Position numbers and translations under genes: made by a program. From Bacteriovoracaceae bacterium (lineage in GTDB: Bacteria; Bdellovibrionota; UBA1018), in assembly GCA_023250795.1 (NCBI GenBank), contig JAHFAB010000003.1, positions 1 to 17,143 of the forward strand: a DNA stretch of 17,143 nucleotides, in the 5' to 3' direction. Positions 6,489 through 11,866 of this stretch are shown in pieces (position 1 is the first letter of the stretch; the number at the start of each line of letters is the position of its first letter). The notes under the pieces are model-generated. The model had not been told where the DNA came from. It ran no database searches and worked only from the letters and a program-made list of their open reading frames with translations.

Positions 6489-7925
6489 ATGAGTGTGGGG
6501 AAACAGATTTTTGATTTAGTCGTGATTGGATCAGGACCTGCTGGACAGAGATCAGCACTTCAGGGCGCTAAAGCTGGAAAAAAAGTGGCTATTATCGAAG
6601 AATATAAGACGGTCGGGGGTGGCTGTGTGCACGTAGGAACGTTGCCTTCAAAATCTTTTCGAGAATCCGTCTATCGCTATTCTTTGGGTTCTCAAGGAAT
6701 CCTTGGCCAGGAGGCTGAACATTACGCAGCTGTGACTCCAAAGAAAAAGGAACTCCCTGAGATCGAGAGACTTTTAAAACGTTGTGAACGAGTGGTTCAC
6801 GGGGAAGAGCAAGTTATTCAGAATCAATTGACAAGAAATGGGATTACTATTTTTCAGGGTAGGGCAAAATTAATTTCTACAAATGATATTGAAATTAAAT
6901 CTGACACAGGCACAGTTTTATTAACGGCCTCTTTTATTTTTATTGCCGCAGGAGCACGTCCAGTAGCCCCAGAGCATTTGACCGTAGATGGAAAAACAGT
7001 GGTTGATAGTAATTCTGTTTTACAGTTGAAAAAGCTACCTAAGACTATGGTGGTTCTCGGAGCTGGGATTATTGGTTGCGAATACGCCAGTATGTTTTCG
7101 ATGGCTGGGACTCAGGTTTATTTGGTGGACCGAAGGCATGAAATTTTGGCCTCTGTGGACCGCGAGATTGTCAATCATTTGACGGAACGGTTTAACCATC
7201 AGGGAATGGAAATCCTCCTTCAAACTGAAGCAGTAAAATTAGAAAAAACGCATGTAGTTTTGAGTAATGGTCGAAAAATTGAGACCGAAGTAGTTTTGAT
7301 AGCCCAGGGAAGATTTGGAAATACAGAGAATATGGGGTTAGAGGCATTGGGAATCCAAAGGGATCAGAGAGGTCTGATCAAAGTCGACCCCCACTTTAGA
7401 ACAAGTGTTCCCAATATTTACGCAGTTGGAGATGTGATAGGAGCTCCTGCTTTGGCTTCGACGAGCATGGAGCAGGGGAGAATTGCATGCTGTCATGCCT
7501 TTCAGATCAAAGACAGTTGGGGCGGTCAAGATTATGTGATGCCAACGATTTATCCTTACGGGATTTATACGATCCCTGAGATTTCAATTTTAGGTCAAAC
7601 AGAGGAAGCATTGATTGCAGAGAAAGTAGATTTTGTGGCGGGCAAAGCACGCTATAGAGAATTAGCCCGAGGACAGATTGTGGGAGATCGCTGGGGACTT
7701 TTGAAGTTAATGGTCGATCGGAAGAGTTTGAAAATTTTAGGTGTGCATATTGTTGGAGATAATGCTGCAGACTTGATTCACATCGGACAAGCAGTTATGT
7801 CCTTTGGCGGAGATGTTCGATATTTTATCCGAAGTGTTTTTAATTATCCGACGCTAGCGGAGGCCTATAAAACAGCAGCTTTTCATGCAGTGAATCAGAT
7901 CCAGGGAACGACGAAGACGAAGTAA
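6489..7925 (+). CDS. sthA: Soluble pyridine nucleotide transhydrogenase (Si-specific)
   Basis: A 478-residue flavoprotein of the pyridine nucleotide-disulfide oxidoreductase family, moving hydride between NADPH and NAD+ in the cytoplasm. The FAD-binding GSGPAG motif is at 14-19 and the NAD(P)-binding GAGIIG at 191-196, with YAVGDVIGAPALAS as the second FAD motif. The redox-disulfide segment reads GGGCVHVGTLPSK: C46 is kept but the second cysteine is T51, which separates Sth from lipoamide dehydrogenase and glutathione reductase. The C-terminal FNYPTLAEAYKTAA is the Sth form rather than the HPT..E form of the disulfide enzymes. ATG 6489 follows the cpaF TAG with no gap, and AAGGAAG lies upstream, so translation is probably coupled. 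Both motif differences together make mercuric reductase or Lpd unlikely. Confidence 0.88.
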   Translation: MSVGKQIFDLVVIGSGPAGQRSALQGAKAGKKVAIIEEYKTVGGGCVHVGTLPSKSFRESVYRYSLGSQGILGQEAEHYAAVTPKKKELPEIERLLKRCERVVHGEEQVIQNQLTRNGITIFQGRAKLISTNDIEIKSDTGTVLLTASFIFIAAGARPVAPEHLTVDGKTVVDSNSVLQLKKLPKTMVVLGAGIIGCEYASMFSMAGTQVYLVDRRHEILASVDREIVNHLTERFNHQGMEILLQTEAVKLEKTHVVLSNGRKIETEVVLIAQGRFGNTENMGLEALGIQRDQRGLIKVDPHFRTSVPNIYAVGDVIGAPALASTSMEQGRIACCHAFQIKDSWGGQDYVMPTIYPYGIYTIPEISILGQTEEALIAEKVDFVAGKARYRELARGQIVGDRWGLLKLMVDRKSLKILGVHIVGDNAADLIHIGQAVMSFGGDVRYFIRSVFNYPTLAEAYKTAAFHAVNQIQGTTKTK

Positions 7926-7960
7926 TAGCTTGTTAAGTAAAAATTTATTACAGATTTTGG

Positions 7961-8080
7961 AAGTATTCATTTTAAGAAAACAAGTTCGAAACACGCTGTA
8001 CTCATCCGTGAGTCTTGGTCTCGACATCCTGTCGAGCCCTTTTAGCGTGTTTCGAACTTGTTTTCTTAAAATGAATACTT
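7961..8080. repeat. Perfect 37-bp inverted repeat with a two-hairpin loop
   Basis: The arms 7961-7997 and 8044-8080 are exact reverse complements over 37 bp. The 46-nt loop itself contains two hairpins: ACTCA-tccg-TGAGT (8000-8013) and CTCGACA-tcc-TGTCGAG (8020-8036). It lies between the convergent sth and vapC genes, starting 36 bp after the sth stop. There is no adjacent long T-tract, so it is not a standard intrinsic terminator, though it could act as a bidirectional 3'-end structure. It occupies most of the 206-bp gap between the two genes. Confidence 0.9.
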
Positions 8081-8131
8081 GTAAAATAGAGATTTATTTT
8101 TTCTGAATAAGTTATTGTTGGAAGTCGGCGG

Positions 8132-8512
8132 TTAAAAATTACCATCAAAGAGTTCTAGGCCATGTTGAATTAATATTTTGAAGTCTTTGTCGAGAGAGAA
8201 AAGGGGGGTTTTTTCTGTGATTGCGGTTGCAGCTATAATTGCATCTCCAGAGCCCAGTTTTGGATAATGGGCTAGAAACTGTGCTGCTAATACGTAAGCC
8301 TTATATTGAGTATTTAAAAACATAAAATTCTCAAAATAGTTTTGATAGCTTTCGCGTTTTCGATCATCTTTAAAGCCGCCTAAAAACTCGACCCATATTT
8401 GTCCACAAACTGCAGCTTCATTTTTAGAGACAAGGGACCATAAAAACTCACTGATAGGTTTGTTCTCTTTACGATAAAGACTAATCCAGATGCTAGTGTC
8501 TACGATGACCAT
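8132..8512 (-). CDS. vapC: VapC-type PIN-domain toxin ribonuclease
   Basis: A 126-residue single-domain PIN protein, the usual length of a VapC toxin, which is a Mg2+-dependent RNase. The acidic residues are all present: D5 (VDTSIW), E42 (WVEFLGG), D90 (GSGDAIIAA) and D108/D110 (LDKDF), so the toxin looks active. Its ATG at 8512 lies inside the end of the antitoxin gene (13-bp overlap) with no own ribosome binding site, indicating translational coupling so that antitoxin is made first. Downstream is the long inverted repeat at 7961-8080. The RNA target (tRNA, rRNA or mRNA) cannot be read from the sequence. Confidence 0.88.
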   Translation of the reverse strand: MVIVDTSIWISLYRKENKPISEFLWSLVSKNEAAVCGQIWVEFLGGFKDDRKRESYQNYFENFMFLNTQYKAYVLAAQFLAHYPKLGSGDAIIAATAITEKTPLFSLDKDFKILIQHGLELFDGNF

Positions 8513-8715
8513 TTGGATTTTTTTCGAGATAGCTTTATTTTTTTTAGGGTATGAGGAAGTTTTTTACTAAAAAGGAGCTCTAAAAACTCCAGTCTTTTTT
8601 TTAAACTCACATAGTCTTTTAGGGAGGTCACAACAGCCTCACTGTAGTGAAGCTTACCAGAGAGTTTCATGGCTTCTTCTAGTAAGTCTTCTGAAATTGT
8701 AATAGTGGTGCGCAT
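8500..8715 (-). CDS. vapB: VapB-type ribbon-helix-helix antitoxin
   Basis: A 71-residue antitoxin. The N-terminus MRTTITISEDLLEEAMKLSG is the typical VapB strand-helix (ribbon-helix-helix) DNA-binding start, and the basic C-terminus rich in Lys/Leu should wrap the toxin. The ATG at 8715 was chosen over the longer frame from 8787 because the family begins exactly here and because the extra residues would span the operator and promoter. There is no Shine-Dalgarno sequence upstream. A TTGACA hexamer and a weak CATGCT place the transcript start close to the ATG. It forms an operon with vapC and is divergent from eno. Confidence 0.85.
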   Translation of the reverse strand: MRTTITISEDLLEEAMKLSGKLHYSEAVVTSLKDYVSLKKRLEFLELLFSKKLPHTLKKIKLSRKKSKWSS

Positions 8716-8736
8716 GGTTAGAGCATGACATGGGGT

Positions 8737-8763
8737 GATGCAGTTGTCAAGTTTAACTGCATC
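8737..8763. promoter_or_regulatory. Probable VapB/VapBC operator over the vapB -35 box
   Basis: GATGCAGTT (8737-8745) and AACTGCATC (8755-8763) form a perfect 9-bp inverted repeat with a 9-bp spacer. On the minus strand TTGACA (8745-8750) lies in and beside the centre, 17 bp from a weak CATGCT (8722-8727). A palindrome over the -35 box of a toxin-antitoxin promoter is where VapB-type repressors normally bind for autoregulation. The hexamers are visible; binding is inferred. Confidence 0.65.
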
Positions 8764-8831
8764 TAAAAATATATAAAATAGCACCAAAAAAATAGTGTTA
8801 AAAATTCAAAACCTGGGTTAAATTATCCTCT

Positions 8832-10136
8832 ATGTACACAATCGAACAAATCAAATCTAGAGAAGTTTTAGATTCAAGGGGTTTTCCAACAGTGGAAGTA
8901 GAACTGAGTTTAGCCGAAGCGACAGGGCGCGCGGCGGTGCCTTCAGGAGCTTCGACCGGAGAGGGAGAGGCGTTAGAGCTTCGCGATCAAGATCCAAAAA
9001 GATTTTTAGGCAAAGGAGTTCTCAGGGCGGTTGCGAATGTTCAAGAAAAAATAGCTCCTGCTCTTGTGGGGAAAAAAATTAAGACACAAGCTGAATTAGA
9101 TCATTGGTTGATAGAACTCGATGGGACTTCTGGTAAATCTAAATTGGGAGCCAATGCGATTTTAGGAGTGAGCATGGCTTTTGCGAGAGCGTGTGCTTTG
9201 GAAAGAGGGATTCCCACTTATGCCTACATAGCAGAAATACAGGGTGGCAAGGGCGTGACTCTCCCAGTACCGCTCATGAATATTCTAAACGGCGGTAAAC
9301 ACGCAGACAACGGGCTTGCAGTCCAGGAGTTTATGATAGTGCCAGTAGGGTTTCAAAAATTTTCAGAAGCTCTGCGTGCAGGTGCAGAAATTTTTCACCA
9401 CCTCAAAAAAATATTACATGATAAAAATCTTTCAACTGGGGTGGGGGATGAAGGAGGGTTTGCTCCATTTTTTCAGGGAGAGCATCCTCATGAACAAGCA
9501 CTCGAGTGTGTTTCTCAGGCGATTTCAAAAGCCGGTTATGTTTTAGGGCGTAACATCTATTTAGCGCTAGATGCAGCGGCGAGTGAGTTTGCCTCTAAAA
9601 GCGGGGTGGGCTATTATGATTTTGAAGGAAAGAAGATTTCTTCTCAAGAGCTCGTGTCAATTTATACTCGGTGGGTAGAAAAATATTCTATCCTGTCTTT
9701 AGAGGATGGTCTTTCTGAGCACGATTGGGAAGGTTGGTCGTATCTTACCTCAAAGCTGGGTGCGAATTCTCAATTGGTAGGAGACGATTTGTTTGTAACT
9801 AATCCTATTTTTCTAAAAAAAGGGATTGAGAAAAAAGTGGCCAATGCGATTTTGATTAAGCTCAACCAGATAGGAACAGTGACTGAGACATTAGACACGA
9901 TGAAATTAGCAGCCTCTGCGAAATATGCTGCCATTTCTTCTCACCGCAGCGGGGAAACTGAGGACACTTTTATAGCGGAGCTCGCAGTTGGAACAGATTG
10001 TGGTCAAATCAAAACAGGTTCAGCGTCACGGACAGATCGAATTGCAAAATACAATCAACTATTGAGAATAGAAGAAGAACTCGGAAGCCGAGCCCAGTTT
10101 TTGGGGATTAAGGCTTTTCGTTATAGGGGAAACTAA
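8832..10136 (+). CDS. eno: Enolase
   Basis: A 434-residue enolase converting 2-phosphoglycerate to phosphoenolpyruvate in glycolysis. Family motifs are complete: [16 protein letters not shown] at the N-terminus, [36 protein letters not shown] with catalytic E207, Mg2+ ligands in LALDAAA, LSLEDGL and LVGDDLF, the signature [14 protein letters not shown] with catalytic K343, and [17 protein letters not shown]. The length is normal for bacteria. ATG 8832 is fixed by family alignment, but there is no Shine-Dalgarno sequence before it; an AT-rich AATTAT lies only 5 nt upstream, compatible with a leaderless message. ftsB follows after 3 bp and queF after that, so the three genes probably form one transcription unit, with eno-ftsB a conserved pair in many proteobacteria. 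Confidence 0.97.
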
Positions 10137-10139
10137 CTT

Positions 10140-10475
10140 TTGAGAAAAATGAGAAAAAAAACAAGAAAACACCGTCCTGTCACTTCGATTTGGCTGGCGG
10201 TTTTTGCTCTTTGGACCCTGTTTATTACAGGCCTGTTTTCTAACCTCATTGGGTCACCTGGAATCATTCAGGCTCTTAGGCTCAGAAGTTTGTTGAATTC
10301 TAAAGAGTCCGAACTCCATGAAACTGAGATTGACATTCAGCACTTAGACGCTGAACGACTTAAGCTTGAGAAAAGCAAGGTGACTCAAGAAAAAGAGATT
10401 AGAAGAGTTTTAGGCTATGCTGCTAGTGATGAAATTATTTTTGACTTTACGACCTCTGACCGGCTAGTACTCTAG
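10140..10475 (+). CDS. ftsB: FtsB/DivIC-family septum formation initiator
   Basis: A 111-residue bitopic division protein. A strongly basic cytoplasmic N-terminus (MRKMRKKTRKHRP) is followed by one membrane segment (about residues 15-37, SIWLAVFALWTLFITGLFSN) and a charged coiled coil (about 45-88, ESELHETEIDIQHLDAERL), then a short extracytoplasmic tail. This is the architecture of FtsB/DivIC, which joins FtsL and FtsQ in the divisome. The location directly after eno supports FtsB. The start is TTG 10140, which has GGGGA at about 9 nt; ATG 10149 is possible and would remove only three residues. Sequence conservation in this family is low, so the call rests on topology and position. Confidence 0.75.
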   Translation: MRKMRKKTRKHRPVTSIWLAVFALWTLFITGLFSNLIGSPGIIQALRLRSLLNSKESELHETEIDIQHLDAERLKLEKSKVTQEKEIRRVLGYAASDEIIFDFTTSDRLVL

Positions 10476-10479
10476 TCCT

Positions 10480-10848
10480 ATGACTGAGAACCCTAAACCT
10501 TCTGGACCTACCATACTTGAGCGATTTGAAAATCGGACTCCCACCAGGCGTTACTGGGTTGAGTTTACATGCCCAGAGTTTACCTGTGTTTGTCCGCGAA
10601 GTGGATTTCCAGATTTTGCAACTCTTTATATTAAATACATCCCCAAGCACTGGTGTGTCGAGCTCAAGAGTCTAAAGCTTTACATCGGTCATTTCCGCAA
10701 TCAGGGGGTTTTTCACGAGGACGTAGTCAATATTGTTTTAGATGATTTGGTGAAACTCTTAGATCCTTGGGAGATCGAGGTGGTGGGAGACTTCAATGTT
10801 CGTGGAAACATTAAGACGATCGTACGAGCAAGACACGAGACGAAGTAA
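10480..10848 (+). CDS. queF: NADPH-dependent 7-cyano-7-deazaguanine reductase (QueF, type I)
   Basis: A 122-residue unimodular QueF that reduces preQ0 to preQ1 with NADPH in queuosine tRNA biosynthesis. The T-fold enzyme signature is clear: EFTCPEFTCVCPRSGFPDFA with the nucleophile C38 and general acid D45, the QueF motif ELKSLKLYIGHFRN, and QGVFHEDVVN with the substrate-binding His/Glu pair. The length matches the short (Bacillus-type) form rather than the two-module E. coli type. The ATG lies 4 nt after the ftsB stop with no obvious ribosome binding site, so coupling is likely. Its last codons and TAA are inside the left arm of the 43-bp inverted repeat at 10835-10985, which is unusual. Confidence 0.93.
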   Translation: MTENPKPSGPTILERFENRTPTRRYWVEFTCPEFTCVCPRSGFPDFATLYIKYIPKHWCVELKSLKLYIGHFRNQGVFHEDVVNIVLDDLVKLLDPWEIEVVGDFNVRGNIKTIVRARHETK

Positions 10849-10985
10849 TCAAAGTACTCAGTTTATATAAGTCAGTGTGAGGAGCGTGTGCGTCCAGGAA
10901 GGACATAAGCACAGCGAGCACATGGATGTGCGTCTCCGACATCACTGACTTATATAAACTGAGTACTTTGATTACTTCGTCTCGT
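10835..10985. repeat. Perfect 43-bp inverted repeat with a branched loop
   Basis: The arms 10835-10877 and 10943-10985 are exact reverse complements over 43 bp. The left arm includes the last codons and the TAA of queF. The 65-nt loop can fold further: GGAG (10881-10884) with CTCC (10934-10937), TGTGCGTCC (10887-10895) with GGAC plus GCACA (10901-10913), and GCACA-tgga-TGTGC (10919-10931 core). It fills the 142-bp gap between the convergent queF and the 10991-11866 gene. No T-tract follows on either strand. Confidence 0.9.
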
Positions 10986-10990
10986 ATATT

Positions 10991-11866
10991 CTACGACTCG
11001 TCTTCTATTTCTTTTTCCGGCTCTCTGTCTTGCTCTTCATCTATTAGATCCTCATCTTTTTTTATCTTTAATTCTAGAGCTTGCAAAAAGGTTTTTCGGT
11101 TTCGACCTTCGATCTCATGGCACTGTTTTGATTTTACTTTTTGTAGAATCCAGCTCAATTGGGGCATGTGGCGTTCAATGAGTTTTTCATGAATATAGTT
11201 CTGACCTGGGATAGCAACAAAAACGCTCAATTGCATCCCATGCCGTCTATCCACTTTTTCTTTTTGAAAGACGATGTAAAACTCTTTGAATGGTTTTTGG
11301 ATGTTTTGAGATTCAAAATATTTCTCAAGGCTTCGATTTTCTGGAAGGCACTTTCCAAAAAAGGCACGTGAATCAAAAACAACTTTGTTTTCTTTGGTGT
11401 CGATAATTTTTCCTGGATAAACGTATTGTGAAAATTTTTTTCCAAAGACGCTGTTTTCGGCGAGGTTATAAAGATAGATCGATTGATCGTGGAGACAATT
11501 TTCACACGGCTTAGCGGACAGTATCAGGTATGGGCCGACAGGCTCTGGAGGTTTGATAAACCCCAAAGGCTTGGCTTCATAGAGAGAGGTTTGGAGAGGA
11601 GCTATGGAGTTTTGAGAAGTTAAGGTTTTGAAATAAAAAATACTCCCACTTTTAGTTCCCTCTATTTTTTCGACCGTAAGGGGTTCTGGTGTAAGGCTAG
11701 CGGAAGGCTCAGGTTTAGGGTTTTTCTTTTTATGTGTTTTAGAATTCGAAATCAGAGGCCAAAAACAATAGAGAAAAATCATAAAAAAGAGAGCTTTCCT
11801 AATAAGCTCTCTTAATCGAGTACGTGACTCAGTGCATTTTTTAGTGTATATTGTGTTTGGCACCAT
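10991..11866 (-). CDS. Membrane-anchored hypothetical protein
   Basis: A 291-residue protein I do not recognise. A basic stretch (RTRLRELIRK, residues 15-24) precedes a short hydrophobic segment (about 25-39, ALFFMIFLYCFWPLI), then a Lys/Pro-rich linker (THKKKNPKPEPSASLTPEP), which suggests an N-in membrane anchor with the rest outside the cytoplasm. The body has four cysteines, including CENC, and the C-terminus is very acidic (DEEQDREPEKEIEDES). The start is uncertain. ATG 11866 keeps the basic flank but has no ribosome binding site; ATG 11782 lies just after a terminator-like hairpin with AGGA in its loop. It is divergent from nfu and convergent with queF across the 43-bp repeat. Confidence 0.6.
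   Translation of the reverse strand: MVPNTIYTKKCTESRTRLRELIRKALFFMIFLYCFWPLISNSKTHKKKNPKPEPSASLTPEPLTVEKIEGTKSGSIFYFKTLTSQNSIAPLQTSLYEAKPLGFIKPPEPVGPYLILSAKPCENCLHDQSIYLYNLAENSVFGKKFSQYVYPGKIIDTKENKVVFDSRAFFGKCLPENRSLEKYFESQNIQKPFKEFYIVFQKEKVDRRHGMQLSVFVAIPGQNYIHEKLIERHMPQLSWILQKVKSKQCHEIEGRNRKTFLQALELKIKKDEDLIDEEQDREPEKEIEDES
11787..11813 (-). terminator. Terminator-like hairpin near the start of the 10991-11866 gene
   Basis: On the minus strand AAGAGAGCTT and AAGCTCTCTT form a perfect 10-bp stem around a 7-nt loop (ATTAGGA), followed directly by a run of six T (two of them in the stem). This has the form of an intrinsic terminator, but it lies at codons 18-27 of the longest reading of that gene, or just before ATG 11782 if that is the true start. 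It could be an attenuator, or a chance palindrome inside a coding region. Confidence 0.45.

Follow-up and report, generated by a model that had tools for sequence, protein, structure and literature searches.

Two palindromes in a Bdellovibrionota contig

The window, by which we mean the whole 17,143-nucleotide stretch of DNA analyzed here, is one contig (C126) of a 2.43 Mb metagenome-assembled genome (MAG) from Bdellovibrionota that consists of 473 contigs and is 77% complete (G000, the own genome below). Between convergent genes it carries two long palindromes, element A (7961 to 8080) and element B (10835 to 10985), with perfect arms of 37 and 43 bp around loops of 46 and 65 nt, which we call heads (Table 1). 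The heads of these and related elements are copied, dispersed repeats, and the arms are mostly local, being largely inverted copies of the adjoining gene end and mostly not passed on from one element to another. An earlier note, made from the sequence alone, had described the two palindromes, and its coordinates and folds agree with ours: on either strand, A and B are each predicted to form one long stem with small head hairpins (-69 and -94 kcal/mol, respectively). The arm sequences of A and B are unrelated when compared by eye, as the note had said. Its statement that neither element has a T-tract applies to B, the head of which contains no T-run, but not to A, where a short one (CCCTTTT, 8037 to 8043, plus strand) lies inside the head after hairpin 2.

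Table 1 Features of elements A and B and their neighbors in the window
Feature	Positions	Strand	Remarks
Element A left arm	7961..7997		37 bp, perfect; palindrome scan
Element A conserved head	7998..8043	minus (GGA strand)	repeats in own genome; model R2
Element A head hairpin 1	8000..8013	minus	loop CGGA
Element A head hairpin 2	8020..8036	minus	GGA loop, A-T closing pair (AGGAT)
Element A right arm	8044..8080		37 bp, perfectly complements left arm
Element B left arm	10835..10877		43 bp; first 14 nt are the last queF codons and stop
Element B conserved head	10878..10942	plus (GGA strand)	model R1; 86-95% identity, six unlinked copies
Element B head hairpin GTCC(AGGAA)GGAC	10892..10904	plus	
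Element B head hairpin GCACA(TGGA)TGTGC	10918..10931	plus	
Element B right arm	10943..10985		43 bp; holds inverted copy of queF 3' end
Pyridine nucleotide-disulphide oxidoreductase, upstream neighbor of A	6489..7925	plus	
PIN-domain protein (VapC-like), convergent neighbor of A	8132..8512	minus	
queF, upstream neighbor of B, ending within left arm	10480..10848	plus	
291-aa open reading frame without Pfam match, convergent neighbor of B	10991..11866	minus	ends 5 nt beyond right arm

The genes before the two palindromes both end in GACGAAGTAAT. The note had allowed that this may be chance, and it does look incidental: the sequence occurs four times in 361 kb of the own genome, at the two gene ends, as an inverted copy in the right arm of B, and at L071:4141, where our scan found no long palindrome. 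The best matches of QueF were Bdellovibrionota and Bdellovibrionales MAGs. A VapBC-like toxin-antitoxin pair (PIN domain plus VapB antitoxin; 8132 to 8787, minus strand) directly adjoins element A.

Copies in the own genome and across the phylum

An unbiased palindrome scan was run on 60 own-genome contigs plus the window (361 kb), with three Markov (shuffled) copies as the control. It returned 13 palindromes with an arm score of at least 22 in the real sequence and none in the Markov copies. By eye, 10 of the 13, including the two in the window, carry a GGA head; when the window is excluded along with two contigs that were known matches beforehand, the head is present on seven of nine. Extrapolated to a whole genome, this density would amount to some tens of copies. 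The note had held that its proposed class of similarly built elements at gene ends would fall if an inverted-repeat scan compared with shuffled sequence found only these two palindromes or found them scattered without relation to gene ends; more were found, and they are related to gene ends, as the permutation reported below also supports.

Searching the own genome with element A gave four places at 83 to 93% identity and three partial ones at 75 to 91%, and in searches with A and B the match to further copies covers mainly the head plus a few final stem pairs. Thirteen of 16 loci viewed have long, near-perfect arms that differ in sequence from copy to copy; the partial head matches L007 (which has an N-run), L017, and L018 have no long arms around the head. 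N-runs lie inside the heads of L007 and L046, so assembly seems to fail at these palindromes, which may add to the fragmentation of the MAG.

Covariance models of the heads were then used: R1 matched eight places in the own genome, and R2 gave 29 matches, four of which are the same places on the other strand, leaving 25. The Rfam model of the TwoAYGGAY RNA motif, RF01731, added seven places, all below its cut-off. All 35 inspected of these 40 places (those on C211, C162, C383, C107, and C286 being left out) are palindromes. For the statistics below we used a set of 79 elements, consisting of R1 and R2 model matches plus two palindromes from the unbiased scan (L032 and L081:328-520). At L086 and L092 the finder returned no palindrome, and L115 looks like the same contig as L149. 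These last two are 5,035-base contigs with the same element (L149, G000:C64; L115, G022:C158), suggesting a contig shared between bins through contamination or a common metagenome.

Among 58 genomes, the own genome included, R1 matched seven and R2 six (E up to 0.1 for both) and RF01731 matched 12 (E up to 1), for a union of 21. A palindrome with the head was seen in 18 of these 21, namely the own genome and 17 others of the same order, G012 being weak; the match in G022 was excluded, as its contig probably equals an own-genome contig, and in G030 and G054 the finder returned no palindrome despite a model match. A further model, R3, which was built solely from A-type heads and used with strict filters, matched 8 of 290 genomes phylum-wide at E 1e-4, seven of them in the order of the window. 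The element class is real and patchy and, in this survey, in which the model searches covered Bdellovibrionota, is centered on one order. The queF loci of 80 named genomes (385 kb) yielded three long palindromes (L226, L234, and L237) with no GGA head evident by eye, one of them from a Dormiibacterota MAG.

Some elements lie close together. L084 and L090 (G002:C10:159-259 and 1610-1710) have identical arms and heads in the same orientation 1.45 kb apart, and close pairs were also seen at L068 (C350), G001:C69, G001:C9, G041:C23, L245, and L248, those in C350, C69, C9, and C23 being oppositely oriented.

The conserved head

The head, in most cases 46 to 85 nt long, folds into two or occasionally three small hairpins, whose A(N)GGA loops lie on the same strand. 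A loose script rule that chooses the better strand assigned two or three GGA-loop hairpins on one strand to 58 of the 79 elements and one to the other 21; since models built on such heads favor this result, the 361-kb contig sample is the better evidence. Most loops have the form A(N)GGA(T) with a closing C-G pair, and many are AGGAT, CGGA, or AGGAA and not the exact AYGGAY hexamer. The stem sequences of the head hairpins vary between families, and the loop is kept. In family B the heads share 0.86 to 0.95 identity (all 15 pairs among six of the seven full copies). The note had preferred a structure-based function or a recurring generating process to a copied repeat family; the recurring process fits the arms, but because the heads are conserved, the elements are copied repeat families. 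One element with a one-hairpin head (L111, G021:C33:47281-47360) nevertheless has perfect 17-bp arms.

Arms and gene ends

In the same 15 pairs of family B copies, the outer arm (28 nt, ungapped) shares only 0.29 to 0.50 identity. For element B, the origin of the arms can be read from queF, which ends within the left arm: its C terminus, RARHETK, resembles that of homologues (RAKHETKKK in L165), so this part of the left arm is ancestral and the right arm is the inverted copy. Arms in G001 enter genes for tRNA-Tyr, -Lys, -Pro, -Pro, and -Val by 9, 12, 15, 15, and 34 nt, so that for these five genes, as for queF, one arm repeats the gene end in inverted form, and at L157 the arm is a plain inverted copy of a tRNA gene end. 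At L137 the stop codons of both convergent open reading frames are the outermost three bases of the arms.

To relate arms to gene ends generally, a gene was taken as abutting if its 3' end lay within -40 to +60 nt, with genes called by open reading frame length only; L090, with the same arms and head as L084, was dropped, leaving 78 elements. Two gene 3' ends abut 13 of them, one abuts 44, and none abuts 21, so that the convergent position stressed in the earlier note describes both window elements, with queF overlapping the arm of B, but is not a rule. The outer arm end falls no more than 20 nt from the gene 3' end in 45 of the 57 anchored elements (the 21 unanchored ones being excluded from the test); permutation of arm lengths gave a mean of 29.6, and none of 10,000 permutations was as high as the observed 45.

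Paired changes in the arms

Family C shows how arms change over time. In seven of its eleven copies, those that could be simply aligned, the inner 44 bp of the arms have no mismatch in 308 pairs, and yet between these copies the arms differ by 18% (about 14% without L145, the alignment of which lacks a gap) and the heads by 6%. One mismatch lies beyond the inner 44 bp in L081, and no mismatch occurs in the left-out copies L143, L149, and L081:328-520. Outside the perfectly paired zone, the two flanks match at 6 to 16 of 30 positions in nine family C copies, indicating that arm perfection ends sharply; in L141 and L148 the family sequence continues into one flank.

Across the 79 elements, 3,311 arm pairs contain 48 mismatches, of which 17 are G.T and 15 A.C on the GGA strand. 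With the two about equally frequent, pairing within the RNA of one strand does not account for how perfect the arms are, and copying at the DNA level is favored.

A tRNA-Arg locus in one genus offers a comparison between species. The element there is orthologous in G043 and G052, and its stem differs by several paired bases, having changed on both sides (CAGACCC/GGGTCTG versus CAAATACCC/GGGTATTTG); these are multi-base paired changes in genomes too distant to resolve single events. Among seven other species examined at this locus (tRNA match of at least 86%), G050, G038, and G045 have other palindromes, and the finder returned none in G054, G046, G047, and G049, indicating that sites turn over. 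In G046 this locus (L269) holds a head-like sequence with damaged GGA hairpins and no arms by the finder, as if arms were lost when a head decays.

Origin of the arms

Both signs of template switching, a reverse-complement copy of adjacent sequence and homogenized arms, are found in these elements. We therefore favor, with reasonable though not strong confidence, a two-part element with a copied head and with arms that are made largely in place and maintained by template switching during replication. An error of replicative DNA copying probably keeps the arms nearly perfectly matched. The stretch from the head to the gene end would be duplicated in reverse complement on the far side of the head, and a later mutation in one arm would be copied into the other. 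The agent may be template switching where the head stalls a replication fork, the head then being the structure that stalls or guides the polymerase; the usual limit of the arms at the gene end could be set by selection against damage to coding sequence; and the head may persist as a binding site formed by its GGA hairpins, with CsrA the most likely ligand whenever transcription yields the GGA strand. There is precedent in two published studies: template switching in Escherichia coli makes quasipalindromes perfect (PMC7202029), and a role in forming and preserving RNA stems has been suggested for it (PMC8794818).

A bolder version is possible, and we advance it tentatively. In this version the palindromes would be bacterial repeats of a new class, stem-borrowing hairpin elements, of which the head (about 46 to 85 nt) alone spreads; its fold would act as a programmed template-switching hotspot that builds and perpetually repairs a perfect private stem from the 3' end of a host gene, giving a palindrome capped by a paired CsrA-type site.

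Several observations weigh against arms made and maintained by template switching. Perfection is not universal: 21 of 33 own-genome elements are perfect and 12 have mismatches, and the left-out family C copy L144 has four mismatches in 60. Nor are arms always private. Inner arm parts are shared among G001 copies, as are nearly whole arms in family C, and in G021 the arms are short (13 to 18 bp) and largely common to the copies, so that there they belong to the repeat. The tracts involved in template switching are usually shorter than the 40 to 80 bp seen here. Finally, no before-and-after pair of one site was seen, the element-free congeneric sites being too diverged to show a copied tract.

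Other observations bear on the CsrA part. Of the 44 elements with a single abutting gene, 34 have their GGA strand antisense to that gene (10 of 11 for tRNAs; binomial p 0.0004, treating related family members as independent), or 35 of 44 when L088, to which the script seems to have given the wrong GGA strand, is corrected. An antisense GGA strand is a poor fit to a simple CsrA site within the 3' untranslated region of the abutting gene. The bias is alike in the hand-assigned head types (21 of 27 for R2-type and 13 of 17 for R1-type heads), and the T-run was accordingly rejected as its cause; possible causes are the direction of replication through the element, antisense transcription, and selection that removes GGA from sense transcripts. 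In addition, 148 head hairpins contain two G.T and four A.C mismatches, showing no wobble asymmetry.

The alternative that survives best, though we judge it unlikely, is a transposable hairpin inserted by an enzyme (HUH/Y1-like or a reverse transcriptase), the flank being copied once by fold-back priming from the head. It would account for family B heads that share nearly no arm sequence, for the narrow range of arm lengths (35 to 46) in the seven own-genome copies of that family, and for the strand bias, but the arms of family C changed together after the copies had parted, so that a continuing process is needed anyway. Searches with PF01797 (Y1 transposase) and PF00078 (RVT_1) showed neither enzyme to be present in every carrier searched, and both were rejected as the mover. 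PF01797 had three matches in the own genome and none in the element-bearing G009 (82% complete), G027 (75%), and G028 (93%), and PF00078 had none in G000, G009, G027, and G041 (95%); genes may be missed in G000, G009, and G027, which are 75 to 82% complete.

Selection for RNA structure, with the arms kept paired as bidirectional terminators, for 3'-end protection, or as RNase III substrates, seems improbable to us. The position of the elements directly after gene and tRNA 3' ends, their very stable folds, and the T-run after hairpin 2 in the head of A count in its favor. Selection on one RNA strand should, however, tolerate G.U, and the missing wobble asymmetry in arms and head hairpins speaks against it; 40 to 80 perfect pairs exceed what a terminator needs, the arms of family C diverge faster than the heads, and the antisense bias is similar in A-type (R2) heads, which usually have a T-run, and in R1-type heads, which have none in those viewed. 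An assembly or amplification artefact (inverted chimeras) is very improbable: the MAG is fragmented and N-runs lie inside two heads, but the same architecture recurs in 18 genomes, some of them in 8 to 30 contigs (G043, G047, G041, and G028), two species have orthologous elements, and the elements are closely tied to gene ends.

If arm maintenance by template switching is right, compensatory base pairs, which ordinarily serve as proof of RNA structure, can arise wholesale at the DNA level at dozens of loci in one genome, and a search for RNAs there that relied on covariation alone would be misled. The elements would be a natural system in which to measure bacterial template switching and a possible origin for the poorly conserved outer stem of TwoAYGGAY RNAs. 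This reading would also point to a distributed set of paired, predicted CsrA-type sites in Bdellovibrionota.

Comparison with known systems

Two resemblances can be set aside quickly. The likeness to viral terminal hairpins drawn in the earlier note holds in outline only, and a viral origin was rejected after an exact head pattern for A and another for B had no match in IMG/VR, a search that would miss diverged heads. Rfam microRNA matches (mir-9457 and others) scored well below their gathering scores and are probably chance matches to any perfect hairpin.

Like intrinsic terminators, the elements place a hairpin behind a gene, and in A a head hairpin is followed by TTTT on the plus strand; unlike them, B has no T-run in its head, and the stems are far longer. 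REP/REPIN sequences with their RAYT (Y1) transposases are likewise dispersed intergenic palindromes, but as described in PMC3733652, REPs are 20 to 40 bp and many have GTAG or CGTC tags. Here the long arms mostly differ between copies, and some carriers have no Y1 gene match.

The closest anatomical counterpart is the TwoAYGGAY RNA motif (RF01731, Rfam clan CL00106), which according to PMC4333381 is predicted to bind CsrA, whose sites present GGA in hairpin loops, in pairs, and has an external stem that is not well conserved in the Rfam model. The RF01731 model aligns over its full length (1 to 168) to L110 at 36.8 bits, against a gathering score of 43, and it matches eight places in the own genome at E values up to 1. 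The best scores, 42.0 (G009 and G028) and 41.4 (G000), fall below the gathering score, which no match in the 58 genomes passes, and RF01731 has no match at E 1 in window positions 7700 to 11300, that is, to neither window element. The elements are therefore TwoAYGGAY-like in anatomy but cannot be filed as members. Flank-derived arms and dispersed copies are also absent from the excerpted published accounts of the motif, and we found no description of flank-derived arms in the mostly open-access, partly excerpted literature on CsrA, template switching, quasipalindromes, and hairpin elements. The heads share a feature of CsrA sites, paired GGA hairpin loops, and CsrA is a candidate ligand. The presence of csrA itself was discarded as support, since the gene occurs in 56 of 58 genomes, including the own genome, and does not discriminate.

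For the arms, the nearest known process is quasipalindrome template switching, which, as PMC7202029 and PMC8794818 describe it, perfects imperfect inverted repeats and, with the nascent strand as template, can give rise to stems. The published process is an occasional mutation, whereas in these genomes it would go with a repeated head and would have shaped dozens of loci.

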